Positions 2,495 to 64,000 of a DNA stretch of 64,000 nucleotides are shown piece after piece. The stretch is from Mya arenaria. Its lineage: Eukaryota; Mollusca; Bivalvia; Myida; Myidae. The stretch lies in the NCBI RefSeq assembly GCF_026914265.1, contig NC_069133.1, positions 4,687,566 through 4,751,565 of the forward strand, given 5' to 3'. The first letter of the stretch is position 1. Each line of letters begins with the position of its first letter. The notes beneath the pieces are model-generated. The model was not told where the DNA came from. It made no database searches and saw nothing but the letters and a program-made list of their open reading frames with translations. The translations under genes and the position numbers were made by a program.

Positions 2495-3509
2495 GAGGTA
2501 TTAATCCTCACATCGCGTCAATAATGTACCTGCTCAAAAGTTATATTTCAGGAATATTTATTCAGTACAGCTAAACTTTATAAATAATACCCTGATCTAT
2601 CAAAATCAAAACATCAACTTTACCAATTGAATATTGAAATAAATGCAAACAAAAATGTATTTTTGGCATTTTTGTTTCTTTGGTAAGTATATGAATATGT
2701 ATATGAAAAACTACCGAAAAAGGTCCAGCAGTCGGACGTTTAAACATTACACGCATATTGTATGTTTTAACACGTATTTAAGAGGAAACCAAATGCTAAC
2801 ACACATGGCCACAACACATACATTACTCACTTGTTAATTGTACTTGTTAAACAGCCTAGTCATATAAAGCTTATTCAGCTTTTGTAAAGACTTCGATAGA
2901 AATGAGGTGTTAAATCATATAAATTTATGCTGTTTCAAACAATTGGACTGCAGATCACTTAAATATTAAAAAGCAGTATTTTCAATGAAAAAAGGGCTAA
3001 GACAATGCTATGAAGGAAACATCTTTTCACCTTTTATTAGTTAAAATTTGTCTGAATGAAGTGTTTCGTTATCTATGCAAGCCTTAACATTAAAACAAAG
3101 TTAATTGGCGCATTCGGTGGCTGCTGAAAGACGATTTATATAAACACAATGGCCGTATTTACATATGTTTATACATTTGGCGTCATTAGGCTGCCCATTT
3201 GTATAATAAATAAATAAGCGTTGTTGTGAAGATGCTTTGATATAACAGTGTTCGATTAATGCGTCATAAATATTCCGCGCGGAAGAGAATTTTTGCGTCA
3301 ATACATACGTTTGCATGTTGTTATTTTTTATGTCATCCGACTGACATTTAATTGATATTAACTGCATTAAAAGCAGAATGCTTCTGTTATCTTTCCATGT
3401 ATGTCATAGTTTGGTGTTCGCCCTTTCTTAAGCCAATCAATCTAATGTGTCTTTAACATCACAAATGTAATGTTATGGTCATGCTAACTAGGTCAAGTCC
3501 CCTAGAGGC

Positions 3510-3790
3510 GAGTTTCAGTGAACTATTAATTTACTGACCGTGCCATGGCGGTAATCCAATCATTTAACGGTAAAGCAATTTTGATATGGTTATTATTTGT
3601 TTGTGGTGTTTGTATTTGTTGTTTAAACTCGTTTTTGGTATGTGTACTGGTGTATGTGTTGTTAATATGTTAATGTTTATAATTCGTTGTCGTTTGGACC
3701 CTTGCTTTGTGCCGCTAAACACGGTGTTTGTCTTAAATTTTCGACTTCTAGGCTTGTCCCTTTATTTTTCATTTTAACTACGCTTCTATC
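3510..3790 (+). repeat. TTACTGACCG-family repeat unit
   Basis: The unit begins near TTTACTGACCGT, runs through a GT-rich middle and ends with a conserved stretch of the form CCCTTGCTTTGTGCCGCTAAAC followed by a CGACTTCT-GGCTTGTCCCT-like segment. Copy B has the same unit at 37214-37470. Related, more divergent units lie at 7080-7290, 7425-7560, 8260-8660 and 45400-45620. This is a dispersed family of about 250-400 bp with no coding capacity. Its class is not clear. Confidence 0.55.
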
Positions 3791-7742: not shown

Positions 7743-8323
7743 ACTTTCAGTGCTTTGATTTTTATGAAGAATTTGCTAATTCATGTTATCTTTAAAACCG
7801 TTTTTGGCGGACACGTGTTGACTGACTCCGAGTGTTTTGGCTGTGACTTAAATTTCTTCAAATATTTTACGTTTTCAAATCATTTGGAAGGAGAGAATAG
7901 CATATACTATGCTTTTTATTATGAAACTCTATGATCACACAGTCTAAAATCTTTTTAAGGCAGACTGTGTGTGATGTGTTTGGTTTCTAACGATGACTGC
8001 ATCGTATCTTTGAAAAGTATTTGCATTAGGTGCTCTGAATTGTTTCCCTCCGTCTGCAGATAGAGTTGGGATCTCTAATCATTGAAGTACTTGGGGTTTA
8101 CCTTTTCGTTTATTATTAGTATTTGTTTTATTGATAAGTTTCCTCAAGTTAATGCATACTTTGATATGATTTATCTTTTGCGTTTTATCTTTATTAAAAA
8201 TTGTTGGGATAAGAGTGAGGTTTGTGCACATCAACTGGTTTAAACCCCCAGTAAATTTACATTTTACTGATCGGTCCAAGGCGGTACCTAACAATCCTTG
8301 ATAAACATACCAATTATTTATAG

Positions 8324-35172: not shown

Positions 35173-35956
35173 TCAAACACTTGTTAATTCGCCCTACATT
35201 GCTATCACATATTATTTAATTGTTGTCCGAAGAGCAGGCGGTCTTACTCGTTGAACTTGTCGATTCACATTACTATTCTGATTAATATAAACTGTTCGTG
35301 CTTAAAACAATTCATGTATTGCTCTTCGAAGAATTACCTTACTCCTTACTTGAATTGCTCGTATAACCAGTTGTTTCCCAGTACGAATCCTGTACTAAAC
35401 AAGAATGAAGTTGGAAATTGTCCTGGTATTGTTTCTCTTTTTGGTATAGTATATTGACTTATTAAACCATTGAATCATACGCTCTAGTTTCAATGTGTGC
35501 TTTATCCAAGAAGTTGAGGGTAATTATTTTCTGCCATATTTTCGGACACCACCTAACTGATCATTGTAGGGTTTCCCTGATAAATGGACCGTAATTTTAT
35601 CCCGATGCAATCTTGACTGCAATAAAGAAAAAGGAATTCAATTCATTATAATCAAAAAATGTTTTTAACGAATAGCATATATATAATGTAAAGTATCAGA
35701 AATGGGTTATCAAAAACGAAATTGTTTATGTAGAATTATAGGAAAAGTTATGAAAGCAAAGTGCTCTAGAACCAGTACATGTTTACCTTCATTCCGCTTG
35801 ATCAAATGTTTACACAAATAAAATGCAATTTATTGAAGTTTTTTTTCAGATGAAGGTCGAGAAAAATGAAGGTAATCACCGAGTATGGCATACGCATTGT
35901 ACTATACAATCAAATATGTGATTGGCGTTATGGTGCAATACTATAATGAATAACTA

Positions 35957-36172
35957 ATGCGCCTTCTATTGGAGACGATAATTCTTTGTTTCGTGGAATT
36001 CAAGAAAGAACTTATTACTGAGTTTTATGTTCAGGGTATGGACAGCAATCGTACTTTATACTATATATACTTCATAACAACCTTATATGTGTTGTGTTTC
36101 ACATGCATCGCGACTTACGTTTTACACGACGAAAATGAACAAGTCTCCCACAGAGACTTGATAATCGGTTAA
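35957..36172 (+). CDS. Possible small membrane protein, copy B (71 aa)
   Basis: Counterpart of 2279-2494, with the same start, stop and length and a central hydrophobic stretch. It lies about 0.8 kb from the receptor start, divergently oriented. No ribosome-level or splice evidence is available. The ratio of residue-changing to silent differences between the copies does not suggest strong constraint, so treat it as a candidate only. Confidence 0.2.
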   Translation: MRLLLETIILCFVEFKKELITEFYVQGMDSNRTLYYIYFITTLYVLCFTCIATYVLHDENEQVSHRDLIIG

Positions 36173-37213
36173 GAGCTTATAATACTCACATCGCGTCAAT
36201 AATGTACCTGCTCAAAAGTTATATTTCAGGAATATTTATTCAGTACAGCTAAACTTTATAAATAAAACCCAGATATATCAAAATCAAAACATCAACTTTA
36301 TCAATTGAATATTGAAATAAATACAAACAAAAATGTATTTTTGGCATAGTTGTTTCTTTGGTAAGTATAAATATGTATATAAAAAACTACCAAAAGAAGT
36401 CCAGTAGTCGGACGTTGAAACATAACACGCATATTGTATGCCTTTTACACGTATTTAAGAGGACACCAAATGCTAACACACATGGCCACAACACCTACAT
36501 TACTCACTTGTTAATTGTACTTGTTAAACAGCCTAGTCATAGTAGCTAATTCAGCTTTTGTAAAGACTTCGATAGAAATGAGGTGTTAAATCATAGAAAT
36601 TTATGCTGTTTCAAACAAATGGACTGCAGATCACTTAAATACAAAGTGTTAAAAAGCAGTATTTTCAATGAAAAAAGGGCTAGGACAATGCTATGAAGGA
36701 AATATCTTTTCACCTTTTATTAGTTAAAATTTGTCTGCATGATGCGTTTCGTTATCTATGCAAGGCTTAACATTAAAACAAAGTTAATTGGCACATTCAG
36801 TGACTGCGGAAAGACGATTTATATAAACATAATGGCCATTTTCACATATGTTAATACATTTGGCGTCATTAGGCTGCCCATTTGTATAATAAATAAACAA
36901 GCGTTGTTGTGAAGATTCTTTGGTATAACAGTGTTCGATTAAACTAATGCGTCATATATTTTCTGCGCGGAAGATATTTTTTGCGTCAGTACATACGTTT
37001 GCATGTTGTTATTTGTTATGTCAAACGACTGACATTTAATTGATATTAAATGCATTAAAAGCAGAATGCTTCTTTTATCTTTCAATGGATGTAATAGTTT
37101 GGTGTTCGCCCTTTCTTAAGCCAATCAATCGAATGTGTCTTTAACATCACAAATGTAATGTTATGATCATGCTAACTAGGTCAAGTCCCCTAGAGGCGAG
37201 TTTCAGTGAACTG

Positions 37214-37470
37214 TTAATTTACTGACCGTTCCAAGGCGGTAATCCAATCATTTAACGGTAAAGCAATTTCGAGATGGGTATTATTTGTTTGTGGTGTTTG
37301 TATTTGTTGTTTAAACTTGTTTTTGGTATGTGTACTTGTATATGTGTTGTTAATATGTTAATGTTTATAGTTCATTGTCGTTTGGACCCTTGCCTTGTGC
37401 CGCTAAACACGGTGGGTGTTGTTTTTTTTTTAATTTCGACTTCTGGGCTAGTCCCTGTATTCATATTAAT
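37214..37470 (+). repeat. TTACTGACCG-family repeat unit (copy B)
   Basis: Same unit as 3510-3790, with the TTTACTGACCGTTCCAAGGC opening better preserved. It differs by a longer T-run near 37425. Confidence 0.55.
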
Positions 37471-40227
37471 TACGCTTCTATCCCGTATTTAAGCAATCAA
37501 TTCAAAGTCCGAATTAGTAAAGGCTTTATAATTTTCAAATGTGTAATTGGTTTGCAGACAAAATAATGATGGTATTTTGGATCAGTGAATTAAAAATGAA
37601 CGTCTTGTGTTTCATGAACAATATAAAGCAATATAAATTGTATTTAAATATGGTGCCATGAATTGATATGCAAGTCCTTACGTTACGGAGAATAACCGAT
37701 AATGCAAACATTTTTGTTTGTATCTGATTAGTATTCCAGACTGAATAGAAATCAAATTTGTTTTCCTACCTTTGATTAACAATGAACACAATTGATGTGT
37801 ATGTTGATACTATTAAAAAGGAAATATAGTAAGTATAAAACATAATAATTTGTCTGTTGTACGGATATAGTTTTAGTGTTTTTAAAATAAATCAAATATT
37901 AAATTCTGAATAAATACATACCTTGCCAATATTCCCTTTTTGTATCCAAATTTTTTAAACATTTCTTTCTAACCGCAAGCGAATGCTTCTTAACAATATA
38001 TTACAATTTTCGCTGCTACAATATCCTAAGGTACTTCCCCGGCATATAATTAAAGCTCATTTATCAAAGGTGTCCTTGATTCCACACAATTAACTTGCTT
38101 CATACGCCGCCCCTGATATTTACAAACACCAATATTGCAATCCCAACATTTAGTAAATTGTGAGAAAATCATGTCTTATTCTATCCGTTTATCGTATATT
38201 GGCTTTATCCCACAGCAAGCGGACTGTAGCTGACTGTTTTGGATACTTTTGGTGAAAGATTGAAGAGTGCTTTCCATGTATGGCAGCTCCTGCAGGGCTT
38301 ACATACAACTTTTTTAGATAGTTTGGAGGATAGTTAACGTCGAATAAGTAGTTCGTGGATTTATCTTTGGATCCGAGAATTTATAGAATAGAATTGCCTT
38401 TAACTTTCTAGTTTCAAGTCACTGAAAGATCATGCATGCAATTTCATTGCTATTTCTGCAACGTAATACCCCTTTAATTCACTAAGCCTAATTAGCCTGT
38501 AGTTCAAAATAAACATTTTTGGGATTGAAATTCCCATTCAGTGTCAAATCAAATTAGTGACTCTGTGTTGTTTCCACATTGTATTTGATTATTTCATGAA
38601 ATGTTCCAAAGGACAGAGCAAAGTATAGATGAACTTCAGATACGCAACGCCAAGATGAAATCATCACATGCAAATAAATATAGTCAGGAAAGCAACACTG
38701 TTGATTCTACGAACGCCCGATACCAACAGACACTTTAAAGTATTATCTCATTATTGTTTCTCTGGGTAGATGCATTATATACGCTGTTATCTGCTGTGAA
38801 TGCCAAATTGATTAAAGACGGGACGACATAGCTTCTGAACAACTGATCCGAAGTGTATTTCATTATCACAGTAGGTTCATTATTAAGGAATTCTTTGTCC
38901 AATGCGGCATTCGCTGGGACTGCAATTGATTTACGTCTCTCTCTGCAGTTGTATTGCATTACTAGTTAATTGACACTATTGATGGAATGTCCTCAAATTT
39001 CACACAAAAGGTGTTTTACCTTGTTTTACATTTTATTGAACAACTACTTAGTTATATACTTCATCTTTTTTGAACAACTTTCAAAGTATATTTTCAAGTA
39101 AGAAAATAGATGAAAATGTGCTTTTAAACAAAATGTTTTATAAAAGTCTTCACTAAGCAAGCCAATACTCGATTCCAATCAGTACTTATGTGTTATAACG
39201 TGATATGTGCCAGACGTGATCCATAGCTGCGTTGTTTGGAGCTAGTTTCACAACGCAAAACCAAAGCCTAATTGTACGAAAGAGGATTGTTAAACCTGAC
39301 TAGAATGCGTTGTTATTTTGTATGCGTTACCTTCTTCTACAACAACTATATGTGAATGACTGGAAGTATAGGTCGGGGATGGTGATTTCTTTAATAAATT
39401 TAAATACATAATAGAACATTTAATTAGCATTTAATCGCTAAGCTTTCAGATTCACTGAACAATAATTCCACCCATGACCACAACACCATCGGCACAAACC
39501 GAACGGAACGTTTATGGCATCCACGGCATGATTCAATAGTGTTCATATTGTTTACAGATGCTTCTAGTGGCTATTGGTTATTTCAAATTAAAGTGAACTG
39601 TTTGGATAATAGTTAATGAAAACTACATGTATATGAAAAAGCTCACTATGCTAATATATTACCAATATATTTAAGGATGTTAACCAAACATGCAATAAAA
39701 GATGATCAAAGACAAACAAATATCTTGAGCGTGTATATGCATATAACTTCAGACCCACATAACTCTGCCTACAATAAATGGTAGCAGTATTTTAAGCCAA
39801 GCTATGGCCAGTGATATATTTACATTGCACAGTGATATAGACCTAACACATACAAACGGATGGCATAAAACGTAAATTTCGTAATCAGTTACGTCTGATC
39901 ACTACATCGGCACGTTCCGTGAAAATGTAAGAAGGAATTACTGGTAGGGGACCCGGTCTTTGTGTGTTGAATATGAACAAAAGAAACAAAAATGAAAACA
40001 ATTCAATCTTTAAGCAGATGCTTGTAATAATCGGATATTCCGTTCGTACTTATTTCCAAGAAAACTTATTGAAGTATGATTTGTATGCACTATTCTTGCA
40101 TACGGTATATATTGAATATAAGTTGAATGTTACTCGGTCGCGTTAATATTTACATACGAAATGTAAATTTAAGCTATACAATGCTATATTTTAAGCAAGA
40201 AATAAATATCATGGTCTGTTCATTGGA

Positions 40228-46399: not shown

Positions 46400-48430
46400 C
46401 GTATCTAAGACTAGAGACCAGCCTTGTAATTGCAACCTTTTAACTTCCCGCTGTTAAATGATTAAAACCTTGTCGATGGCAATTCGTGATTTCGCTCGTA
46501 AATTGTCTTATCATTGAGTCAAATTTAACGCCATGTCAATTATTCACGAGTAATGTTCAATGAACTTCAAATGAGTTCCATAAATCTAAAAGATAACTTA
46601 TCGACTGTAATGCCCGATGAAACTGTACATTGATAGCTGAAATTTATGAATGTAAGGTTTGCCAATGACCTTAGTTTTCATTCAAGAACTGTTTATAGCG
46701 TATTTTGTTTTAGTTTAGTATTAATTGGTAATAGAAGTTATCGACAAAAGTCGATAATATAAAAGAATTGTCAATAAATTTAACCTTTTAAGTTATTGGT
46801 AATATGACGTCAAGCTAACCAATCAGAGAGCAATATAGAAATACACAATCATCTCATAACCCCTTGCATGGTATACATTATATCACTTCACATCATATTG
46901 AATGCTAATGACTGATTAAAAAACGTCCTCTGTAGATAATGATACATGATCAAACGATATATATATGCAAATGTCTGATTAAGAAACGATCTTCAACGGA
47001 GGATGCGTTCTCTGTATATAATATGTATATACCAAATCTCCAATCAGAGAGCAATACAGGAATACACAATCATGCCATAATCCCTTGCTTGTAATACATT
47101 TAACCCAAACTTATTCAATACTAGTGACTAGGCGAATGCATATACAAATGATTCGTTTGATTATGTATCATCGGTTAAAGTGGTTTTATATTTTTCAAAA
47201 GCAATAGGACCTCAATATAATTAAATATACTGTGAAGGGCACTTGGTAAGATAAAAACAAGTTATTTTCTTTGCTCTGATGGGTCTGTACCCCTTTCTTC
47301 GACATATTACATTCTTCCAATTCATTCAAATTATTATTATTTACTCCTTTTTTGGTAAGTTATTTGAATAAACTTCCGGTTGGAATAGTTTAATATATTA
47401 TTATTGCTTACTGTTGGACAAATTAATTGTACATACTTCCATTTGGACAATTTATTATATTTTCTCCAGTTTGGGCAAGTTATATGAAATAACTTCCAGT
47501 TTGACTAATTATTTGACCTTCTCATTGTTTGGCAATTTATCAGTATTAAAACATTAGTAAGTTATTTTGGACTTACCCTACGCCCATTTGAACGGGCGGA
47601 TCAGTACGCATGCTTATCTAGGCATACTCCCGAATATATATATACCGGCGAGTGCATACATTTTAAAATCAAAAATACAAACTGAAGTAACTATGCTTTT
47701 TTTATTGCTTGAACTGTGTTAAAATTCACTGGATTTACACAAACATGCCAAAGGCGAAATGAGTTAATACGTCGTATGACTTTTAACGCATTAATACATA
47801 GTTTGTCCTCAACATATGTAGAACATTCCCTAAATGTGTGTGTGTGTGTGAGTGTGTGTATTTTTGTCCAGAGCGTTTTATTGTATGTTTTTTTTATCGT
47901 AGGATCTCTGAATTTCATTTGAGTGAAGATGAACAGCTGGAACCATGCAGGTTACCATGGTAGCCAAGACAACAGTCAAGATAACCGCAGATTCTAACTA
48001 TATGTATAATAACTATAAAACACAAACTTGTTTTACATTTATGTTTGTTTTAAGTTATGTAAAATGTCCAGGTTTCTAACATATAGCCAATTGAGGTCAC
48101 TAAAGGTAAAGGTCAATATCATTTTAATGTCGAAATGTAAATCGTGCAATTTTTGTTATTTACAACTAGTTGTTTTAATCATATACAATCTAATGCAATG
48201 TTCCATATAAAAAGCATAGATATATAACATATAACTATTTACAATCATATGAATCAAAATGAGGGCAGCATAGGATTTACTAGTAAGATAAACTAGCCAA
48301 TTACGTACCACCATCTATTTCCAATTTATGTTGTTACTTCTAACTTTTATATTCATGAGCGCTGACATTTTGCTTATAGCTTTGTGATGTGAATGACGTT
48401 GTTGAGAAATAAACTTAATTTAAAATGGAA
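46400..48430. repeat. Intergenic DNA with local degenerate repeats
   Basis: A segment with CCAATCAGAGAGCAATA and AATACACAATCAT occurs at about 46819-46880 and again at about 47040-47100, a tandem duplication with a period near 220 bp. At 47350-47540 a degenerate unit, roughly AACTTCC-GTTTGGA-AAGTTATTTGA, repeats about four times. A GT-rich microsatellite lies at 47835-47860. No gene is supported. Confidence 0.5.
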
Positions 48431-48800
48431 GAAGAACATGGATTAGAACCATAAACGGACACCAGATGGACATAGCATAAAGGTAATGTTAAATTTCGGC
48501 TCTGATCGAAAAACCATCCGGTCATTGGTGAGAGCATCTTAAGCCATCCTACGACCGCTGGTGGAGTTTCTCAAGCTCCGGCAGCAACTTCGTGAGCGAT
48601 TGCAAAAAAATGCATGTAAAAAAAAATGCCGAAAGTGCTTGCGAATGTACATTTGCGCGTTGAATTTGTTTGTTCATTTTGCTTTTCGTGAAGTGACCTT
48701 GTCAAATTGTGTCGATGATATCGAGATTGGTGCACGGTGTCGGCGTAAACAGCCAAATTTAAGTAACTCAAGCGTTTCCTATGTGTCATGGTCATGTGTA

Positions 48801-48840
48801 TATATAAGAGGCCAGCCTCAGATCATCTACCTCAGTTTGT
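48801..48840 (+). promoter_or_regulatory. TATA plus initiator-like core promoter
   Basis: TATATAAG at 48801-48808 is followed 26 bp later by CTCAGTTTG at 48831, a TCAGT-type initiator at the spacing expected for a TATA promoter. Downstream, AACCAAGATGG (ATG at 48994) is a good start context but opens only 14 codons before a stop, unless spliced. No gene is identified. It could be the promoter of a non-coding transcript or a solo LTR fossil. Confidence 0.3.
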
Positions 48841-49079
48841 CAACCCGAAAGTCGTTAAATATGTAAACAGTAGCTCATGTGCTACCGCTCGGCATCAAAT
48901 GTGTCGTACCGGGAGTGGTGTACTCAGTACGTGTTCAACCCAGCAAAATTGTATCCCGTATATCGTTGCTTTAAAACGAACCATTAACGAACCAAGATGG
49001 AATCGCGCCCTGTATATCTTGTATCTCTCTTTGTTTATTAATTTATTTTTGTCTGGATTTGATTGCGAGTTGTAATCAC

Positions 49080-51000
49080 TTCTATATCAGCCAATAGGCG
49101 GACATTGATAATCTAAAAACAAAGAAACATAAATCTTCCTAAACCAGACCTAAGCAACTCTACAGAGCAGAAGCGTGTGTAACTCCTATTCAATCACTGT
49201 TAATCACAATTCAGTCCCTGTAGAATGACATAAGAATATCCCTTCTGGTCTCAAGTTGTCAATTATCATACGGTCTCAATTATCCAAGTCTGCCCTAAAA
49301 CTTCAGAGTTGCTCCGAGCATTATCTCCCTCATCATAAATGAAGTAAATATTGCCATAAAAGCCGAGTTTGGTACTGAGGTGATGCAGTGTCCTACTATT
49401 ACTGAGCATTTTCAGAAGAGATGGCAATTTAATCACAACGTCAAGAAATTCACGAGATGAACTGACCTAAAAAAGCAAAGTTTGACAGCATGTTATCAGG
49501 TCGATTTGTATGCAACTGACAGGGTGCATAACTATATTGAAAATTGGACATTTGACTTAATTGATACATGTTTGAACATGCATGTGCGGGTGAAAGTTCT
49601 AATCGATTGACTAAAGCACCAAGGATTTAGCCGCTCTGGTCAGTGAACTACTTGGTTGTCCCTGACATTCAACACCAAAATCAACTGCACTTTTTACTGA
49701 CAAAATGTTTGATTTATTTGTTCTGTAACAACTATTTCCAAACATTGCCTCTTAGAATAATGCAACAAATGTTCGTTTGCACACAAAACAACAGATAACT
49801 TAAGTAATCGGCAAAGTCTATGCTTGACACAGTTTCCTTAAAATTACAACCAAGAAGAAAAAAAATGAAAAGTGGATCATCGATTCCACAGCTCTTGTCA
49901 TTTATTAACATGAAAAGGAACTTCTTGACGTATGGATGTGTATTTAGTGGTCATTATCTACAATTTTCGAAACCTTGTCATTCCGATGAAAGCCATTTAC
50001 CTAACGAACCTATGTGTATGTGATTATAGTTTTGTCCATGATACTTTTTGACCACATTTCGACATCGTATAAGAGTGCTGCTAACTTTACTAAGGCAATG
50101 TTGATTACCTTATTAGAGAAGGTTGCTTCCTTTGCCTTGTGGGAGAAGAAGCCAATGGCTAATGAAAGGATATTGTAGATAAAATGACGGAGAGGAGTAA
50201 AAGGGTATATCGCATCTTTGATTTTACATTGACGTACTTGCGTATTTATTGTCTACACTATTATTACGATGCCATATATGTTTATGCCTGAAAGAACAAT
50301 TATTTTTATCAAAAGTTACGAGAAACTGTCATCAAAATAATGAACAACTTGTCGGCTAATAATGAAATTATCTCTTAATATTATATTCATTTCCGTACAT
50401 TAAGTGTGAGGAAACTGTAAACGGACCTTGTAAAACTGCGTGTGCAAAGTTTTTCATCAATCTTTGTAAATCTAGAAAACATTTGTCCCTTTATTTACCT
50501 ACTGTATAATTTCGAAGACATTTATTATCTAAAAAAGAAATAGGCAATAAATTATATTATTTTTACAATTTACATATGCCTTATTACATGACTAACATCA
50601 TTTGATGAATTACATCTTTTTTTACGCTAGTTAATTTCATAAACTGAGGGAAATAGTTAATCATAAATAAGTTAGCTTTGGAGGATGATTCTTCAGTTAC
50701 TGTAATACACGCTATATGAGCACATCTTTCTCGCTTCATGCAAACAGTACATTGCCAATAAGTAAATAATTATCAGCAAGTTAAACACAATCAACAGGTG
50801 AACACTGTCAACACACCCTATCAACGGCCTAATTGATCCCTAATGAAAACATCCATAACGCATTAGAAATGCATTTCTTAGATTTTTTATAATTCATTCC
50901 ATTTTGTTTTTATTATATTTGACACTACTTTGCATTATGATACAAAACTATTTGAATACAACAACCCACCTATGTTAACAGTGTTAAATGACATTTCCAG
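49080..51000. other. No supported feature
   Basis: AT-rich sequence with only short open frames, none recognisable. Confidence 0.45.
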
Positions 51001-51032
51001 CGACTGGTTCACTTGGATGAGGTACGACATTC

Positions 51033-51293
51033 ATGATGGTGCAAAACGAAATAAATAACACGAATATTTCATATCTGTATGTTATGCAGACAACTTGCGG
51101 CTTTCTAAAACAAGGATCTGTCGAGAGGGGTTTAGGTACATCGAATAATCTGATAACAATTCGAAGAATCAATAAGCTCGAAAACTCGAGGAACATTGGT
51201 CCGAAATTAACACAAATCCTATCAGATGGGGAACGATTCTTGGACCAGATTAGTTCTCGGACAGTCGCAAAGTTCGCTTTAATTTGGAAGTAA
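51033..51293 (+). pseudogene. Possible Tc1/mariner transposase fragment
   Basis: A plus-strand open stretch reads KQGSVERGLGTSNN, then a basic stretch, and ends ISSRTVAKFAL. The GSVER-G and SSRTV pattern recalls the DNA-binding head of Tc1-type transposases (GSVERRPGSGRP ... VSSRTVRRRL). Spacing is about right, but the GRPR motif and any catalytic domain are absent. The opposite strand is also open (129 codons), so the evidence is weak. Confidence 0.25.
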
Positions 51294-51560: not shown

Positions 51561-53451
51561 TACGTAAACAAAATTATAAAAATGTTAGAATTGCATTCGA
51601 ATACAGCGAGATAGATATTAATCATACCGTCCTAATAAATACACAATGGCGCTCACATCCATTATATGTATTTATGTGTCCCAGTAGGTGCTCAATTTAG
51701 GACATGCGCTAGCTGTTATTGCGTGCAACACGCTCTGAGGCTGCGACTGATTTATGTATCTCGCTGCATATTATATTGATAAAAACATCAATGTTCACGG
51801 TTTGAAAGTCTTGGAAATAGAGCAATCGCTGTTTTTTGATAGTTAAGTAAAGTTTAGTTAATACACAAATATATATCTTGGAAGAAAAGTCAAAAGGGTC
51901 CGTATTAAAACCAAAAGCGTTTTAGATATGTTGTCAGCCGGTTATTAACTATCTAAAATCATAAGCGTCCTAAAATATGTTTTGGCAGGAACATATGTAG
52001 GGGTAAACACTGTCGAGTTGTATTATTAATATCACAGGGATACTCTGCTGATACAGTTTTGTGTAGACGATGCTATATTAAATCCAATGTCAAGGCTTGC
52101 AGTTGAAATACAAAGTTAATGTTGACGCTTTTTGAAATCCTGATGAATCGAGAATACATTCATGACAATCATTTCCAAGTTTCTGGTAGCAAAATGACCA
52201 AAATGATTGGTTGTCAATATAAACACAATTTAAACACATTACAAAAATATAACATGTTTGCAATGTAATGGATCAGTCACATGACTACATGACCATGATG
52301 TGAATACAAGTTGCTTCATACATTGGAGTTAAGGTGTAGTTCTCTTTGCACGTGTATGCAAGGATAACGTGTCGAATCGGTAATTTATTTCAAATAATTA
52401 AACACAACTCATTTATGAACATAAGACAATTTGATTCATCGTATATAAATACTCTTACTGAATATATTTATCTATAACAGCTCATCAGCTTACATTTTTA
52501 TTTGTAATCTGTGTAATCATATACATGTGGTTGTAATTAATTTCATGAACAGTCAAGCATTGGTGATGAGCACAGAGGAACATGTTTGAAAATGGATTAC
52601 TACAATATTGTGCCACGTATATACGGATAATTCACAGAGCACATAGAGTGCAAACAAATGGCAACATATTTAATGAAGAATATATTTTAGTGTTAAAACA
52701 CGAGTACGGTACACAATGGAGGCTGATAGGCCGGATATATCTTATATTTTAAAAAAATATACAACAATATACTAACAGCATAAAAAGTAAGGTTAACACT
52801 GCATTGTCCAAATGTATGTGTGTTCTTCAAAACAAAAACAGCGTTATGTCAATATGACAAAATTATTTTCCAAATAAAGTCTTAAGACATCTGTATGGTT
52901 GGTATTTGGAAACAATAAAATAAGAGCATCATTCGTCCACAAAATATCAATATTATCACAAAAGCTGAAAGAAATGTCAAGAATATATTTTGTTGCTCTT
53001 CTGATGCGGGATCTTAATGACCAGCTGGTACAAAAACCACTTACCGGAGAGTAAACAACTTTCGAGCATGGAACGATAATTTGCAGACAGCAGCGGAACT
53101 TACGTGTCAAGAGGCAATTGAAACACAGTCAGCAATACAGTAGATGTGCCTTAAATACTAAGATCCGGGGAATAAATAACTTAACGCTATAACATTAATA
53201 TTGCTGAAGCATCCGTACAAATCCGCATTCGCCCGTCTCCAACCATCAATATAATACCGTGCTATTTGCTGCAAAGGCATTTAAAGAAATAGGTCCTTAG
53301 CAAAACATTTAAGTTTAGGCCCAAACATTTTGGTCAGATGTGAGCAGAGGCATTATTATATCCCCACAAACACCATAAAGTCAATTAGGGGTCAATATGG
53401 TTATTTTCACAGCATAAAATAAATTTATTTATCATCAGATGATAACACTTA

Positions 53452-53527
53452 ACAACTAAAGAGGTTTCTGCGATGGACTGCTCATTTATTTGGGTCACCC
53501 TGCATGAGTCATATCTCATCCTCATCG
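53452..53527 (+). pseudogene. tRNA-Ser(GCT) relic, left arm 1
   Basis: GCGATGGACTGCTCATTTAT, then GGTCACCC-GCATGAGT and ATCTCATCCTCATCG align with the good tRNA at 53723. The 5' acceptor and A box are gone, so it is not functional. Confidence 0.7.
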
Positions 53528-53722
53528 ACATTGTTTTAATCCAATAACTAAACGCTGACAATAATAAATTTGGGAAACAAATCAAAAAGATTTCAACTTC
53601 CACTGAATCAGTATGTTTAATGAAAGAAACGGACGCAATATCTATGAAAAGTGGATTTTATTCAGGAAATACTCCAGTCGACATATTTTATACTACAGAT
53701 TGGTACTGTTCGTAATTTCAGC

Positions 53723-53804
53723 GACGAGGTGGCCGAGTGGTTAAGGCGATGGACTGCTAATCCATTGGGGTCTCCCCGCGTGAGTTCGAATCTCATCCTC
53801 GTCG
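53723..53804 (+). tRNA. tRNA-Ser (anticodon GCT)
   Basis: An 82-base tRNA with all parts. The acceptor GACGAGG pairs perfectly with CCTCGTC, followed by discriminator G. The A box is TGGCCGAGTGG, and the anticodon stem ATGGA/TCCAT encloses loop CTGCTAA (anticodon GCT, reading AGC/AGT). The long variable arm GGGGTCTCCCC is typical of serine tRNAs, and the T arm is GAGTTCGAATCTC. TTTT lies seven bases after the 3' end as a pol III stop. Its partner on the other arm (61899-61980) is identical. Confidence 0.95.
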
Positions 53805-53907
53805 TAATATTTTATTTCTTTATCGAAAAACTCGATTGAATCAGACGTCAAATGGTGTTGTTTTCTTTATCTAAATTATAATTATGAGGTATTCTATTCG
53901 GAAATTA

Positions 53908-53990
53908 CGAATATGTCGCCGAGTTATTCAGGTGATGACCTGCTTATGCATTTGAGTCTCTCCGCCTGAGATCAAAACTCATTTTCGTCA
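53908..53990 (+). pseudogene. tRNA-Ser relic, left arm 3
   Basis: GTCGCCGAGTTATTCAGGTG, GATGACCTGCTTATGCATT, CTCTCCGCCTGAG and ATCAAAACTCATTTTCGTCA follow the tRNA-Ser order with many changes. The A-box-like start survives, but the T-loop is destroyed and the anticodon stem does not pair. Confidence 0.65.
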
Positions 53991-54340
53991 AATAAATCCA
54001 GTTTGTCGCCTGCATGATTTGCACGTGCTTTATGAAAAGTTTAATTAAAATGGAATGACTACATATTATCTACTTGTTTTTAAAAATCATATGGTTATAA
54101 ACAAAAAGAGAAATAAGGAATTAAGATGTGTTTTGGAACATCCTTTCTGTAAATTGCTTTTACTGCGTATGCGCAAATAGCAACGCCTACTGTTTGGATA
54201 TGCAAAGGCGCTATTCCATTGTCAACGCTGATTTTAATGACGTCACTATATATTGAATTGATTGAAAGTCTTTTTGACAGGCGCAAGGCATAATATTAAA
54301 GTTGATGCAATTTGGGAGGGACTTACACTAAGTCGGTTAG

Positions 54341-54430
54341 ATTAAGTAATTTCTTCGTGGATAAAAAACCACGGTCGCTTTGCTGCGCTCCGCTTCCTCA
54401 GGTTACTTATTCACGAAGAAATTACTTAAT
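54341..54430. other. Fold-back with 19-bp perfect stems (left arm)
   Basis: ATTAAGTAATTTCTTCGTG at 54341-54359 is perfectly complementary to 54412-54430, around a 52-base loop containing GGTCGCTTTGCTGCGCTCCG. The same structure lies on the right arm at 61273-61362. It looks like a small fold-back element or a structured transcript. Confidence 0.75.
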
Positions 54431-54577
54431 AAACTCTAATCTATACATAGCATTTCATCAGAGGTAAATACAACGCAGTATGTATGTTATTTGCAAAGTA
54501 AACCAGAGTAACTCAAATCGACATTATTTGTTTTGCTCAAATGGTTCTGTTTATTATATAAATTATATGAAAATAAC

Positions 54578-54659
54578 GACGAGGTGGACGAGTGGTTAAG
54601 GCGATGGACTGCTAATCAATTGGGGTCTGCCCGCATGAGTTCGAATCTCATCTTCGTCG
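54578..54659 (+). pseudogene. tRNA-Ser(GCT)-like, probably decayed
   Basis: Same length and order as the good copy, with A box TGGACGAGTGG, anticodon loop CTGCTAA and T arm GAGTTCGAATCTC. The acceptor has one G-T pair. The anticodon stem (ATGGA against TCAAT) has a mismatch and the variable arm has lost pairing. It might still be transcribed, but it is likely not charged. Confidence 0.7.
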
Positions 54660-55865
54660 AATCTATTTTTAAATCAAATATCTACATTGAAATGATATAA
54701 TTAAGGATAGCAAGAAAATTGATATCGATGCAATTTAAATGAAATGTGGTATTTATTCAGGAAACACTCCAGTCGACCTTTTTATTTATAACTCAATGAT
54801 GCTGTATCTATTAGATTTATATCAGGTACTCGATATGGGTAATACGACGTGGCGATCGTGTTAATATGACATGAATTTCACAGATAAATATAGCCATATC
54901 TTATGGGTGTTAAAAGTAATGTATTTGTTTATTTTGAACGAAGGACATTAATATTACAAGGTAAAAAATCGTTTTACATATATTTATCTTTATTTAAATC
55001 ATACCAAATTTACTGAGAATGATTTTCTTTATTAAAAAGACGAATATGTTTATGGTAAGATTAACTTAAGCATATTATAGTGTTCAAAATTGTCAATATC
55101 GGTGTTATTTATGTTAGGGGTACAATGTCAAATGCAAATATTGTATCAATGTTCGATGCAGAAATTCGGCAAAAGACACTGAAAGTAGAATTGTTGCTGG
55201 CCAAGTGCATGTAGCACATAATTATATTGCAATGTTTCATTTAATGATGTTCGTGCTTTCACCATAGGCAAGAAGATATATGTCAGTTAAAATGGTGGCT
55301 TTAAAACACCTAAGCCAAGTAAATTACTTCCACCTCAATCAGTTTTTGAAAGACTGTGCTAACAGTTTCAATTTCAGAAAGTTTACATGGATACGATTTG
55401 GAATCATGATAGTGTCATATCTTTTCCAAATATGATGGTAGTGGAACAGGACTTTGGTCCGGAAGGGCACTTTGCGACATTCAGGAAACTTCCAAAATGT
55501 CGTCATAGAAAACAAGTTGAACGCTTGATGACACACAACAACATGGGCTAGAGAAAGAGTCAGCTTACCTCAACTCCTTAATCATTGTCAAGAGGAAACT
55601 GACATAAATATCACAATCTGCTGAACTGTTTTGAATGGTCATTGTTAAATACGTTGATAAACTTGCTTGTGCGACTCGATTACTAAATTGCAATACATAT
55701 TGTATTATGTTCATGTATTATACCAATAAAATGGCTTAATCCTTCCGTCTCTAACATTTACAAAGAGCAATTATCAAATGCTAAAGACTTAAACAGATAA
55801 AAAATATCATGGCAATCTGTTCAATACCACAATTATGTAAATAATACCAAGATTGTATGTAAAAC

Positions 55866-56648
55866 AATATGGGTATTTTCATCATAACTATTTATCAATT
55901 GTTTTTGCTTACTAAATATTTCCTTTCACATTGATTTCATTTCAGCTAAAATATTGCTCTTAAAACATAATAAATTACTAGAAAGAGTTGTCCTGTCTTA
56001 ATGTTAATATAGTCGTTGTTTGCCTAAATACAACCGTATGCCCAGATGCTGTATTACTGTGGGTTTTATTTGGAAGTTTTAATGATATTGTATTATTTTT
56101 TTTTCAAATACACAAGTAACTGAGTTAAAACTTTTATGTTGTTCTTGTCTGAGCATTCAGGTGTATTAATCACTTCCAACTAGGCACAAATACATTTTTC
56201 TAATCTGATAAGAGTGATATCAGTAGCATAATGTGAAAAATAAGGGCTTTTTAGAGTAACACCATGCCTAGAAATACTATCACTAGCAGACCAATCAAGT
56301 AGATAGACGGCTTGATCATTTCTAGGGATTCTTCGCAAATGTGGGCCTCAACTACAGACTGGTAATAATATCTCGTATGCATTAACAAGGATATGTTCTC
56401 GTCTAAAGTAGGCCTTAGATGGTGCCATAAATCTCAATTACAAATTTCATATCAAATGTCAATTTAAGGGGAGGAAATCTAGGCTTTACATATTTAATAG
56501 CTCAATTGGCATGGTTTTCTCGACATTAATTTATTCAGCTCGTTGTTCAATCAAACACTTACAATAAGGCTCTCAATCAGTATTCGTCCAAATGGAACAA
56601 GTGTCATAAGCTGACAGTGAAGGATACTTAACAATACATCCAAGTATT
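55866..56648 (+). repeat. Central direct repeat D1
   Basis: 783 bp, nearly identical (about 98 percent) to D2 at 59041-59821 in the same orientation. It starts AATATGGGTATTTTC and ends CATCCAAGTATT. It fills the space between the inner end of the left palindrome arm and the LINE-derived insert. It does not start TG or end CA and has no coding content, so it is not an LTR. Confidence 0.9.
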
Positions 56649-56868
56649 ATACTGTGGGAGATCTAACTTGAATCCTTAAATTTTGTACGAAAGGTGTTAA
56701 AAGTTTAGAAAAAAATAGTAGATATATCAACGATTTTGAACCCCTACATTGCACTATTAAATATTCAAGGATTGATAACGAAAGGCAATAATAAACGTTT
56801 GCCACCTGAAATTATATCTCTGTTTGAAACAAATGATATTTTATGTTTTATTGAAACAAAATGTCCAT

Positions 56869-57487
56869 TTAAATTACAAAGTAATCAAAAGCTGTAGTAA
56901 AATCAATAAACGTACAGAATAATTGCTTATTTTGATTAATAAAATGAGTTATTAGTCCATGCAAAGCAAAAATATTGTCGGTAGTTCCCATCTTAGCCCT
57001 AAATCCTGCCTGTGCCTCTAGTAATACATGGTAATTTTTGGCCCAGTTTGAAAGCCTACTATTAATTAAATTTGTAAATAATTTTCCAAGGACGCATAAC
57101 AAAGTAATACCTCTAAAATTGTTTGGGTCATTGGTACTCCCTTTTTTGTGTATTGCAACAATAAAGCCTTTAGTCCATTTATCCGGAAAATATCCAAGGA
57201 AAAGTATTTTATTGAACAGTTTTAACAAGAAAGGTGAAAGTTCAGCTTTACCGTTGATAAAAAAAATCATTTAACATTAGATCTGGTCCTGCACTCTTTC
57301 CAGTGTTGAGATTTGTAATACCCTTTTGTAACTCGTTTGATGTAAATGGAATATTCAATTCTACAAACATGCTATTTAATTCAGTCTGCATTACTTCATT
57401 GTTAAAATAAACTACATCGTCGTCAGCTTGAAAAAAACTATCATTGGGATCATTTATTTCCTGAAAGTATTCCGTAAAAGAGTCCAT
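56869..57487 (-). pseudogene. LINE reverse transcriptase, N-terminal part
   Basis: Two overlapping frames. The first (57248-57487) has LNTGKSAGPDLMLNDFF, the pre-RT motif of LINEs. The second (56869-57270) has the core KGSTNDPNNFRGITLLCVLG, then EAQAGFRAKMGTTDNIF and FIDFTTAFD, the last being motif A with the first catalytic aspartate. Motif C (the YxDD box) and all later domains are absent. The two frames are shifted by an indel near 57260. Confidence 0.85.
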
Positions 57488-57535
57488 GCCTATATTTTTT
57501 GGTGTTTGGTGAGTCGTGCCTTTTTTGAATAGCTT

Positions 57536-58022
57536 TCAATAATCTTTTGCATTTTTATGTTTTGCTTTATAAAGTTTATTTGTGTTCTCTTTCATTTTTT
57601 GAAAGTTGAACTTTCGAACGCTTGCCTTATAGTTACTTCTAGCTTCAATCATTAGACGCCTATTTACTTGAGAATTGTTTATTCTGTAATTATTTAGTGC
57701 TTGGAAAAACATATTTTTATCATCAGAACATATATTATTAAACAACAACGTATCTTGCTTATTCTTAGTAAATATGTTAGTGTTCACACTAGATTTTGTT
57801 TTTCTTGAAAATAAAGGTTGGCTAATACTATCAATACCTGTAACAAACTTATTTAAATTACTATCAATATCATTTCCCGAAGACGCCTGTTCAACATTAT
57901 TTTCTAAATTTGCCATTAGTGTTTTAAATGTCACACTATTAAGTGATTGTGTATAATAGCTATTTGTTTTCGCTATCCCATTTAAATGTATACAAATTAT
58001 TTTTATTATTAATATTATTATA

Positions 58023-58076
<54 letters not shown>

Positions 58077-58205
58077 GCCCTTATTCGTATTATTATTATT
58101 GTTATTATTACAAATTATACCAAACTCTATCAAACAATGATCGGATAAAATGTTTGCACAGTGCACTTTAAAATATGTAAACTCTTGCAAAGAACTTTCT
58201 TCCAC
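57536..58205 (-). pseudogene. LINE linker region with Asn run
   Basis: Open stretches of the LINE between endonuclease and reverse transcriptase, with no named domain. An (ATT)n microsatellite (58000-58076 on the plus strand) reads as a long asparagine run here and probably expanded after insertion. Confidence 0.6.
58000..58076. repeat. (ATT)n microsatellite
   Basis: About 20 ATT units plus imperfect flanks inside the LINE fragment. Confidence 0.95.
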
Positions 58206-58916
58206 AATACAGTAATCAAATACACTAGAACATTATTACCTATAAAGGTATAAGACCCAATATTTTTATCTTCACACACCCGGCCATTTGCAATTCTTAG
58301 GCCTGTTTGGATCAAAAAGTCTATTAGTAAACGACCGTTTTGGTTGACTGTACTATCCTGAGAAGTTCTCGGTATAGCCCTATCAATTATATAATCATCT
58401 GGCAAAAAGTGTTGATTTTGCCAAAAAAATATTATCGTTTTCAACATAGTCGGGCATTAAACCTACGCGTGAATTAAGATCTCCCACAATCATAAAAGAG
58501 CAATTTTTACCTTTTATAGTAATCATATTATCTTGTAAAACATCAAAAATATTATTTTCAATATAGATATTTCTACTTGACGTGGTTGGTACTATATAAC
58601 ATACACATAAATATAGGTCACAAGTTTGCTTAATGCAGCTCTTATCAATCCTTATCCATACATGACTATCATTGTGTGACAAAATAAAAATATCATTAGT
58701 AACAAATCTCTCTCTGACATAAACCGATAATCGCCCTGAACTCCTTTTAGCCGTGGTCAATTGATCTAATCTATTTAAAATAAAGCCTTGAAAATTCTCA
58801 ACATCGTTACAAAAATCTTGACAACCCCATGTTTCAGTAAAACATACAATATCATGTGTTTCAAACAGAGATATAATTTCAGGTGGCAAAAGTTTATTAT
58901 TGCCTTTCGTTATCAA
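58130..58916 (-). pseudogene. LINE apurinic-type endonuclease domain
   Basis: The first frame (58395-58916, 173 codons) holds HDIVCFTETWG with the catalytic glutamate, RSSGRLSVYVRE, and VGDLNSRVG with the catalytic Asp/Asn pair, the standard APE order. A frame change near 58400-58440 moves the reading to 58130-58447, which continues with RTSQDSTVNQNGRLLIDFLI, as expected for this domain. The final SDH box is kept beyond it, as LSDHCLIEF in 57960-58205. This domain would nick target DNA in an active LINE. Confidence 0.8.
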
Positions 58917-59040
58917 TCATTGAATATTTAATAGTGCAATGTAGGGGTTCAAAATCGTTGGTATATCTACTATTTTTTTTCTAACCTTTTGACACCTTTC
59001 GTACAAAATTTAAGGATTCAAGTTAGATCTCCCACAGTAT

Positions 59041-59821
59041 AATATGGGTATTTTCATCATAACTATTTATCAATTGTTTTTGCTTACTAAATATTTCCTT
59101 TCACATTGATTTCATTTCAGCTAAAATATTGCTCTTAAAACATAATAAATTACTAGAAAGAGTTGTCCTGTCTTAATGTTAATATAGTCGTTGTTTGCCT
59201 AAATACAACAGTATGCCCAGATGCTGTATTACTGTGGGTTTTATTTGGAAGTTTTAATGATATTGTATTTTTCTTTTCAAATACACAAGTAACTGAGTTA
59301 AAACTTTTATGTTGTTCTTGTCTGAGCATTCAGGTGTATTAATCACTTCCAACTAGGCACAAATACATTTTTCTAAATTGATAAGAGTGATATCAGTAGC
59401 ATAATGTGAACAATACGGGCTTTTTAGAGTAACACCATGCCTAGAAATACTATCACTAGCAGACCAATCAAGTAGATAGACGGGTTGATCATTTCTAAGG
59501 ATTCTTAGGAAATGTGGGCCTCAACTACAGACTGGTAATAATATCTCGTATGCATTAACAAGGATATGTTCTCGTCTAAAGTAGGCCTTAGATGGTGCCA
59601 TAAATCTCAATTACAAATTTCATATCAAATGTCAATTTAAGGGGAGGAAATCTAGGCTTTACATATTTAATAGCTCAATTGGCATGGTTTTCTCGACATT
59701 AATTTATTCAGCTCGTTGTTCAATCAAACACTTACAATAAGGCTCTCAATCAGTATTCGTCCAAATGGAACAAGTGTCATAAGCTGACAGTGAAGGGTAC
59801 TTCACAATACATCCAAGTATT
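59041..59821 (+). repeat. Central direct repeat D2
   Basis: Second copy of the 782-bp segment, between the LINE-derived insert and the right palindrome arm. It differs from D1 by about a dozen changes, including a shorter T-run. Confidence 0.9.
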
Positions 59822-61043
59822 GTTTTACATACAATCTTGGTATTATTTACATAATTGAGGTATTGAACAGATCGCCATGATATTTTTTATCTGTTTAAGA
59901 CTTTAGCATTTGACAATTGCACTTTGTAAATGTTAGAGACGGAAGGATTAAGCCATTTTATTGGTATAATACATGAACATAATACAATATGTAGTGCAAT
60001 TTAGTAATCGAGTCGCACAAGCAAGTTTATCAACGTATTTAACAATGACCATTCAAAACAGTTCAGCAGATTGTGATATTTATGCCAGTTTCCTCTTGAC
60101 AATGATTAAGGAGTTGAGGTAAGCTGACTCTTTCTCTAGCCCATGTTGTTGTGTTTCATCAAGCGTTCAACTTGTTTTCTATGACGACATTTTGGAAGTT
60201 TCCTGAATGTCGCAAAGTGCCCTTCCGGACCAAAGTCGTGTTTTGAATACTGTTTTGTTTAAGTATTCCACTACCATCAGATTTGGAAAAGATATGACAC
60301 TATCATGATTCCAAATCGTATCCATGTAAACTTTCTGAAATTGAAACTGTTAGCACAGTCTTTCAAAAACTGATTGAGGTGGAAGTAATTTACTTGGCTT
60401 AGGTGTTTTAAAGCCACCATTTTAACTGACATATATCTTCTTGCCTATGGTGAAAGCACGAACATCATTAAATGAAACAATATATGTGCTACATGCACTT
60501 GGCCAGCAACAATTCTACTTTCAGTGTCTTTTGCCGAATTTCTGCATCGAACATTGACAATCTTTGCATTTGACATTGTACCCCTAACATAAATCACACC
60601 GATATTTACAATTTTGAACACTATAATATGCTGAAGTTAATCTTACCATAAACATATTTGTCTTTTTAATAAAGAAAATCATTCTCAGTAAATTTGGTAT
60701 GATTTAAATAAAGATAATTATATGTAAAACGATTTTTTACCTTGTAATATTAATGTCCTTTGTTCAAAATAAACAAATACATTACTTTTAACACCCATAA
60801 GATATGGCTATATTTATCTGTGAAATTCATGTCATATTAACACGATCGCCACGTCGTATTACCCATATCGAGTACCTGATATAAATCTAATAGATACAGC
60901 ATCATTGAGTTATAAATAAAAAGGTCGACTGGAGTGTTTCCTGAATACATCCCACATTTCATTTAAATTGCATCGATATCAATTTTCTTGCTATCCTTAA
61001 TTATATCATTTCAATGTAGTTATTTGATTTAAAAACGAAGATT

Positions 61044-61125
61044 CGACGAAGATGAGATTCGAACTCATGCGGGGAGACCCAAATTTATTAGCAGTCCATC
61101 GCCTTAACCACTCGTCCACCTCGTC
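61044..61125 (-). pseudogene. tRNA-Ser(GCT)-like, decayed (right arm)
   Basis: Mirror of 54578-54659. The anticodon loop CTGCTAA is kept but the stem is worse (ATGGA against TAAAT), so it has drifted further than its partner. The variable arm here retains GGGTCTCCCC. Confidence 0.7.
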
Positions 61126-61272
61126 GTTATTTCCATATAATTTATATAATAAACAGAACCATTTGTGCAAAACAAATAATGTCAATTTGAGTTACTCTGG
61201 TTTACTTTGCAAATAACATACATACTGCGTTGTATTTACCTCTGGTGAAATGCTATGTATAGGTTAGAGTTT

Positions 61273-61362
61273 ATTAAGTAATTTCTTCGTGAATAAGTAA
61301 CCTGAGGAAGCGGAGCGCAGCAAAGCGACCGTGGTTTTTTATCCACGAAGAAATTACTTAAT
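61273..61362. other. Fold-back with 19-bp perfect stems (right arm)
   Basis: Mirror of 54341-54430. Both stems stayed perfect in both arms although the arms differ elsewhere. Confidence 0.75.
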
Positions 61363-61712
61363 CTAACCGACTTAGTGTAAGTCCCTCCCAAATTGCATCA
61401 ACTTTAATATTATGCCTTGCGCCTGTCAAAAAGACTTTCAATCAATTCAATATATAGTGACGTCATTTAAATCAGCGTTGACAATGGAATAGCGCCTTTG
61501 CATATGCAAACAGTAGACGTTGCTATTTGCGCATACGCAGTAAAAGCAATTTACAGAAAGGATGTTCCAAAACACATCTTTATTCCTTATTTCTCTTTTT
61601 GTTTATAACCATATGATTTTTAAAAAGAAGTAGATAATAAGGAGTCATTCCATTTTAATTAAACTTTTCATAAAGCACGTGCAAATCATGCAGGCGACAA
61701 ACTGGATCTATT

Positions 61713-61793
61713 TGACGAGAATGAGTTTTGATCTCAGGCGGAGAGTCTCAAATGCATAAACAGTTCATCGCCTGAATAACTCGGCGACATATT
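61713..61793 (-). pseudogene. tRNA-Ser relic, right arm 3
   Basis: Mirror of 53908-53990, with the same loss of T-loop and anticodon stem. Confidence 0.6.
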
Positions 61794-61898
61794 CGTAATT
61801 TCCGAATAGAATACCTCATAATTATAATTTAGATAAAGAAAACAACACCATTTGACGTCTGATTCAATCGAGTTCTTCGATAAAGAAATAAAATATTA

Positions 61899-61980
61899 CG
61901 ACGAGGATGAGATTCGAACTCACGCGGGGAGACCCCAATGGATTAGCAGTCCATCGCCTTAACCACTCGGCCACCTCGTC
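61899..61980 (-). tRNA. tRNA-Ser (anticodon GCT)
   Basis: Mirror of 53723-53804 and identical over all 82 bases, including the perfect acceptor and anticodon stems, long variable arm and intact A and B boxes. On the minus strand a T-rich stretch (TTTTATTTC) follows the 3' end. The two good tRNA genes therefore face each other, about 8.1 kb apart. Confidence 0.95.
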
Positions 61981-62179
61981 GCTGAAATTACGAACAGTAC
62001 CAATCTGTAGTATGTATAAAATATGTCGACTGGAGTGTTTCCTGAATAAAATCCACCTTTCATAGATATTGCGTCCGTTTCTTTCATTAAACATACTGAT
62101 TCAGTGGAAGTTGAAATCTTTTTGATTTGTTTCCCAAATTTATTATTGTCAATGTTTAGTTATTGGATTAAAACAATGT

Positions 62180-62254
62180 CGATGAGGATGAGATATGACT
62201 CATGCAGGGTGACCCAAATAAATGAACAGTCCATCGCAGAAACCTCTTTAGTTG
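62180..62254 (-). pseudogene. tRNA-Ser(GCT) relic, right arm 4
   Basis: Mirror of 53452-53527, with the 5' half of the tRNA lost. Confidence 0.65.
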
Positions 62255-63372
62255 TTAAGTGTTAAGTCTTATCATCTGATTATGATAAATGAATTGACTT
62301 TATGCTGTGAAAAGAACCATATTGACCCCTAATTGACTTTATGGTGTTTGTGGGGATATGATAATGCCTCTGCTCACATCTGACCAAAATGTTTGGGCCT
62401 AAACTTAAATGTTTTCCTAAGGACCTATTTCTTTAAATGCCTTTGCAGAAAATAGCACGGTATTATATTGATGGTTGGAGTCGGGCAAATGCGGATTTGT
62501 ACGGATGTCAATCCCGTTATTTTCACAAGGGTTTTAAACGTAATAGCAAGCTTCAGCAATACCGTTAAGCGTTAAGAAGTTATTTATTCCCCGGATCTTA
62601 GTATTTAAGGCACATCTACTGTATTGCTGACTGTGTTTCAATTGCCTCTTGACACGTAAGTTCCGCTGCTGTCTGCAAATTATCGTTCCATGCTCGAAAG
62701 TTGTTTACTCTCCGGTAAGTGGTTTTTGTACCAGCTGGTCATAAAGATCCCGCATCAGAAGAGCAACAAAATATATCCTTGACATTTCTTTCAGCTTTTG
62801 TGATAATATTGATATTTTGTGGACGAATGATGCTCTTATTTTATTGTTTCAAAACACCAACCATACAGATGTCTTAAGACTTGGAAGATTTGGAAAACAA
62901 TTTTGTCATAACATAACGCTGTTTTTGTTTTGAAGAACACACATACATTAGGACAGTGCAGTGTTAACCTTACTCTTTATGCTGTTAGTATATTGTTGTA
63001 TATTTTTTTAAATGTAAGATATATCCGGCTTATCAGCCTCCATTGTGTACCGTACTCGTGTTTTAACACTAAAATTTATTCTTCATTAAATATGTTGTCA
63101 TTTGTTTGCTCTCTATGTGCTCTGTGAATTATCCGTATATACGTGGCACAATATTGTAGTAATCCATTTTTAAACATGTTGCTCTGTTCTCATCACCAAT
63201 GTTTGACTGGTCATGAAATTAATTACAACCACATGTATATGCTTACACAGATTACAAATAAGAATGTAAGCTAATGAGCTGTTATGGATAAATATATTCA
63301 GTAAGAGTATTTATATACGATGAATCAAATTGTGTTATGTTCATAAATGAGTTGTGTTTAATTATTTGAAAT

Positions 63373-64000
63373 AATAAACATACAATAGCAAATCAACATA
63401 AAGCTGTAATGTATGAAAGGAAACATTCCGTAGTATGCATCTGTCGGTATTCCATACACAGTAAGTTATATATATTTAAAAAAGGGCTGGTTTAAAATAA
63501 AGACAAAACAAAGGAATGTACTGAATCAAGCCCAAGAGCTATTTGTATAACTAATACCCTACTTAAATGCACACGGGCAAAGTCTAATAGACACTAACCG
63601 AGGGATAAACTATTAACAATTGACTAGCTATGCGATATCATATCAATAAATGATCAATTGCGTGTAATGGAGTTCTCGTTCATTTTGACTCACATGCGTG
63701 GGAATTTATGACAAGTTGTATTTATAAAGAAATGTCATACTGTACTTTACAGTCGAATAATTTATTTGAAAAACGCATTATGCTCAAAACAAGCACAATT
63801 TAAGAAACAATATATTGTTATTAGGCTGATTTTGAAACACACGTTGCATGACTATGATAATAATTCAATATTCAACAGTATAGATTAAGGGTGATATTTA
63901 ACGGCTAATTGTCATATTATTCAAACTACAAAGGCAAAGCGAAATAAACGTAAACTTACTAATGTTTTCAAATGCGTCTGCTTTTATTTTGATAGCAAAT
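63373..64000. other. No supported feature
   Basis: AT-rich unique sequence outside the palindrome. No gene, RNA or repeat is recognised. Confidence 0.5.

Follow-up and report, generated by a model that had tools for sequence, protein, structure and literature searches.

Is the structure at positions 55866-59821 of the window analysed here, in which two direct copies of one block enclose an insert with inverted, LINE-containing ends, a new kind of transposable unit built from a LINE head, as a sequence-only reading had entertained, or the outcome of a chromosomal rearrangement? The window is a 64,000-nt stretch of DNA (C12:4687566-4751565; positions above 64000 on its scale belong to L023, the next 10 kb), and the genome searched comprises 1.216 Gb in 18 contigs. 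The locus is a real but ordinary multi-step rearrangement, not a new kind of mobile element, and very probably results from a single inverted duplication of a short chromosomal segment, with the mirror point within a truncated LINE and one internal block turned. This degree of confidence belongs to the three-step outline developed below, and two of the alternatives, end joining and copying of D2 by template switching, fall inside that outline.

The direct duplication that had been reported as 782 bp long is real: D1 (55866-56648) and D2 (59041-59821), both on the plus strand, are 783 and 781 bp long and, over 783 alignment columns, show 769 matches, 12 substitutions and one 2-bp gap. The inverted repeats of about 200 bp at the ends of the insert are confirmed as well (56645-56858 and 58830-59044; 215 columns, 95.8%). 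What the sequence-only reading missed is that D1, the insert and D2 form the centre of a larger inverted repeat, with arms of ~3.5 kb each, A (52385-55869, plus strand) and A' (59818-63374, minus strand), which differ by 81 substitutions over 3465 aligned sites and by 20 gap events, and the inner ends of which coincide with the outer edges of D1 and D2. The order of the locus can be written as A - D - X - h - spacer - h' - X' - D - A', i.e., a palindrome in which only D keeps the same direction in both arms. The inverted unit consists of the arm, D, the 100-bp segment X (56649-56748, plus strand, with its copy X' at 58940-59040, minus strand) and 110 bp of LINE (h, 56749-56858, plus strand, and h', 58830-58939, minus strand). 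Save for the turned D2, all of A, D, X and h are present on both sides of 56874-58829, that is, as inverted copies around a single-copy LINE spacer of 1956 bp.

Each arm carries two tRNA-Ser(GCT) genes (53722-53805 and 54577-54660 on the left, 61043-61126 and 61898-61981 on the right). The outer pair scores 64.6 bits each and the inner pair 46.7 and 36.9 bits; given these lower scores, the inner pair may be decaying. ARAGORN identified no tRNA genes in ten neighbouring or paralogous stretches (L019-L023, L011, L032-L035). The left arm also contains a MITE-like dispersed repeat of ~300 bp (54149-54449), with a pair of 30-bp inverted repeats inside and at least 37 matches outside the neighbourhood at 81-86% (40 of 770 candidates scored).

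As a genome query, 56649-59040 yielded at least 64 matches (40 of 260 candidates scored), and the non-self matches listed fall within positions 220-2292 of the query (56868-58940 in the window) or, in inverse orientation, at 100-210 (~56748-56858), so the outer 100 bp on each side, X and X', are not part of the LINE copies found. These segments are flanking DNA, contiguous with D in a paralogue, P1, located ~100 kb to the left. For 56600-56770, the search (4 of 4 candidates scored) returned four matches, namely the locus itself, two pieces of the right arm and C12:4639718-4639864 in P1, where the D-X match, at 84%, stops no more than 3 bp from the LINE boundary; X' matches C12:4639718-4639819 at 82.5%, and the LINE copies differ at X. 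The segment h, the first 110 bp of a LINE truncated near the start of ORF2, matches the LINE copies L002, L005 and L006 at 94.5-96.4%. Twin priming or any other reverse-transcription origin of the inverted ends is ruled out, given that these ends include the non-LINE flank X.

The full-length LINE copies L027 and L028 begin with the same sequence (L027:2281, L028:2058), lie in different surroundings and terminate with a short ATC/TTC repeat; the LINE spans ~5.1 kb in L028, and in L027 a 387-aa frame precedes the frame equivalent to the LINE of the locus. The start of the locus LINE corresponds to L027:3709 and L028:3508, 1428 and 1450 bp inside the full-length elements. Because of this internal start, it looks, by sequence comparison, like an ordinary 5'-truncated copy, and the proposal that a LINE 5' end occupies both termini of the insert does not hold, neither for the outer 100 bp, which are flank, nor for the LINE part, which starts ~1.43 kb inside the element. 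The LINE abuts a flank that is continuous in the empty site, the latter being a diverged paralogue and not an allele. The X/LINE junction is identical in both arms, which indicates that the LINE was present before the duplication.

At the other end, similarity to the LINE copies ceases just past what we take to be RT motif A, and the LINE 3' half is missing, as had been noted from the sequence alone. The accompanying assignment of the spacer, a piece of the LINE ORF2 (56874-58829, minus strand), to an endonuclease and the first part of the RT fared unevenly. A partial RT is indicated by an RVT_1 match (E 7.7e-7, profile positions 1-80 of 205, 29.5 bits, just below the 29.6 cut-off), whereas the remainder is, to judge from its frame and from the LINE copies, a putative endonuclease region, for which, as for the other frames tried, Pfam returned no match. 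Four frames of L027 gave no Pfam match either, and the LINE clade is hence left without a name. Two further stretches, L025 and L026 (C5:38738001-38748000 and C5:39342501-39352500), located ~600 kb apart, are 99.8% identical over nearly 10 kb, pointing to either a recent segmental duplication or a false assembly duplication.

The order of the flank without the LINE is seen in P1 (C12:4639718-4641979; L011), which matches window 54626-56745 in one piece (2300 columns, 73.7%), indicating that A-D-X is one ancestral stretch, and which extends beyond X with no LINE at that point. A third copy of the A-D-X neighbourhood, P3 (L023:3186-6345, i.e., 67186-70345 on the window scale), is more diverged and is preceded by a piece at 67060-67128 (77%) that resembles Y, the 2.8 kb to the left of X in P1. 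The X-D-like sequence of P3 follows from 67186 (75%), leaving no space for a LINE; the alignment is ragged at the boundary itself, and this LINE-free passage is looser than that of P1.

In P1, D lies between A and X in the direction of D1. A genome search with D produced at least 12 matches (12 of 12 candidates scored), full-length for D1, D2 and P1 (78%) and partial for nine others (69-78%), with P3 outside the listing. Among five other loci with D fragments that were compared (L032-L036), L033, L034 and L035 also contain A fragments, ordered and oriented as in the left arm, and L032 and L036 contain D fragments only. The position of D in P1, the joint arrangement of D and A in these three loci and the D-X order, with which P3 agrees, identify D2 as the turned block; mapped on P1, its orientation is opposite to that of X' and A'. 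The notion of a 782-bp target-site duplication is ruled out by the location of D between A and X in P1: D is a duplicated block of the flank that has been turned around. We also rejected D as a mobile or invertible element, the 12 matches listed being mostly partial and its ends, apart from AATA/TATT and a faint similarity, showing nothing like terminal repeats. Integration of a circle via recombination at D could produce direct copies of D, yet it would leave the X-D-A contiguity in P1 unexplained.

The breakpoints of the D flip, AATA and TATT, represent 4 bp of inverted microhomology; when 200,000 inversions of 300-1500 bp were placed at random in the same region, 2.5% had at least 4 bp. The differences between the arms (81/3465 in A, 12/781 in D, 3/100 in X and 5/110 in h) are compatible with one age (p 0.19), and for this reason D was most likely part of the duplicated stretch, its flip in one of the arms taking place at the time of the duplication or afterwards. 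Polarising by P1 is not decisive for which arm changed, either for D (D1-like at 7 sites, D2-like at 3, neither at 2) or for the inner arm (left-like at 11, right-like at 6, neither at 7). An alternative, which we regard as doubtful, is that D2 was copied from D1 by two inter-arm template switches instead of D being inverted in place. In its favour, D1 and D2 are slightly less different than the remainder (12/781 versus 89/3675), and AATA/TATT is suited to both mechanisms; the gap between the two proportions, however, falls short of significance (p 0.17).

At the mirror junction, the left arm tracks the LINE start to 56858, followed by filler of at most 15 bp (56859-56873, assigned to no strand) and by the inverted LINE body from 56874. 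One LINE copy, L008, aligns 6 bp past 56858, such that the filler is possibly only 9 bp long. No template for it was found in 52385-63374, where exact matches of only 8-9 nt occur, the longest being 9 nt, and no clear inverted microhomology was seen at the junction, which has filler instead. A search with 56790-56940 returned at least 40 matches (40 of 49 candidates scored), a single one of which, the locus itself, spans the mirror junction; the other 39 are one-sided.

We propose the following scenario for the inverted duplication with one turned block. First, a LINE copy whose truncation point lies close to the beginning of ORF2 would have come to adjoin the single-copy A-D-X stretch, an arrival suggested by the paralogues that have no LINE, and its 3' end and any target duplication would have been lost. 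Second, a break would have occurred inside the LINE; the end, cut just after RT motif A, would have been joined via the filler to a point of the LINE ~110 bp inside the truncated start, and outward copying would have taken in X, D and A, yielding an inverted copy of ~4.5 kb and the single-copy LINE spacer of ~2 kb, with the loss of the LINE 3' half. Third, an inversion with breakpoints at AATA and TATT would have turned D around in one of the arms, leaving D1 and D2 in the same direction; the orientation of D is directly observed, and the flip could have happened either during the duplication or afterwards. The anatomy of the locus fits fold-back, from which we infer a pairing step of this kind, although filler without clear inverted microhomology at the mirror junction counts against that step; the second step most likely proceeded by fold-back or template-switched synthesis. 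The suggestion, made from the sequence alone, of a chimeric product of template switching or double-strand-break repair is supported.

Within the outline, fold-back or template-switched synthesis ranks ahead of end joining, in which two chromatids, either sisters or homologues, with breaks at different LINE positions would have been joined end to end with filler and without any intrastrand fold-back. The filler at the mirror junction suits such joining, which would also account for the flip of D in one arm only: if the chromatids were homologues, part of the 2.3% difference between the arms would be allelic variation, and one haplotype might have carried D in inverted orientation beforehand. 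We regard this as a serious but rather unlikely alternative, since two ends ~2 kb apart are required and neither chromatid source is independently supported. A further proposal, to which we likewise assign a low probability, is that one replicative event produced both the duplication and the D flip through three or more template switches (one at the mirror junction, two at AATA/TATT), so that an arm was made in which a single block ran backwards, or that the palindrome arms themselves promote such flips.

Beyond the arms, pieces of 47736-51142 are colinear, in the same direction, with C12:4632262-4636919, and pieces of 63499-66587 with C12:4641988-4644310. Relative to P1, the left arm would be an extra inverted copy and ~2.8 kb, namely Y, would be missing; between the left flank and the left arm, Y is represented by weak repeat-like matches at 51.4-51.6 kb, the rest of it not being found there. 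The identification of the left arm as the extra copy is uncertain because the arms can recombine, turning the centre around, and because the neighbourhood has apparently been rearranged more than once. The latter follows from C12:4644323-4650202, to the right of P1, which matches window 1128-2292 and the upstream flank L022 in reversed order, a sign that this 100-kb neighbourhood has undergone additional inversions or duplications. Elsewhere in the window, 1-5365 and 33671-39066 form a direct duplication of 5.4 kb (92%), one side of which has an open frame of 602 aa (33364-35172) matching 7tm_1, a rhodopsin-type GPCR, and the other only shorter frames of similar sequence at 592-1490. The GPCR and the LINEs together suggest that the DNA comes from an animal. 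There is also a SECIS_1 match at 7923-7987 (41.7 bits, above the gathering score).

An assembly artefact, in which haplotypes or a chimeric read were joined in inverted order, is improbable: the substitutions and gap events that separate the arms show that the two do not stem from a single molecule read twice, colinearity with P1 extends to parts of each outer flank, and the D flip and the filler are, in our judgement, unlike assembler errors. As for a transposable unit of a new kind, with inverted termini of LINE origin and a target duplication of great length, the locus does have inverted ends set between direct repeats, but this origin has next to no probability because the ends are flank common to the LINE-free P1, the LINE start is internal, D belongs to the flank in P1 and in the partial relatives, and searches with the block and its junctions found no second copy of either among the candidates scored (40 of 260, 40 of 49 and 4 of 4).

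With the inverted duplication as the preferred explanation, a candidate new mobile unit is removed, and it becomes apparent that an inverted duplication with its mirror point in a LINE, combined with one block inversion, can mimic a mobile unit. The locus represents a readable, old interstitial inverted duplication with spacer and filler, which can be compared with paralogues on the same chromosome.

Among known systems, a 5'-truncated LINE insertion arises by target-primed reverse transcription, and the fragment at the locus resembles one in starting abruptly ~1.43 kb inside the element, beside unrelated flank; it differs from a typical case in that the 3' half is missing and neither a 3' end nor a target duplication is visible here. 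Twin-priming LINE inversions contain LINE sequence in both orientations, as does the locus, in which, unlike in twin priming, inverted copies of the flank X lie outside both LINE ends and no LINE 3' end is present.

For human fold-back inverted duplications, 21 sequenced junctions have been described with spacers of 766-70,466 bp (median 3,428); 13 of these junctions have 2-8 bp of inverted microhomology, three are in repeats and five have insertions; short inverted homology is found at the spacer/inversion junction in 16 of the 21 and an insertion in the other five (Hermetz et al., 2014; PMC3907307). Unlike these human cases, the locus is interstitial, its arms are only ~4.5 kb long and 2.3% diverged, no inverted microhomology is visible at the mirror junction, and one block is also turned. 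The absence of the LINE 3' half and of most of Y from the locus may reflect the loss of sequence beyond the break that such duplications show, and the filler may be the counterpart of the bases inserted at some of their junctions. What the locus has in common with the fold-back inverted duplications described there is that inverted copies are arranged around a kilobase-sized single-copy spacer which, at 1956 bp, lies within the human range.
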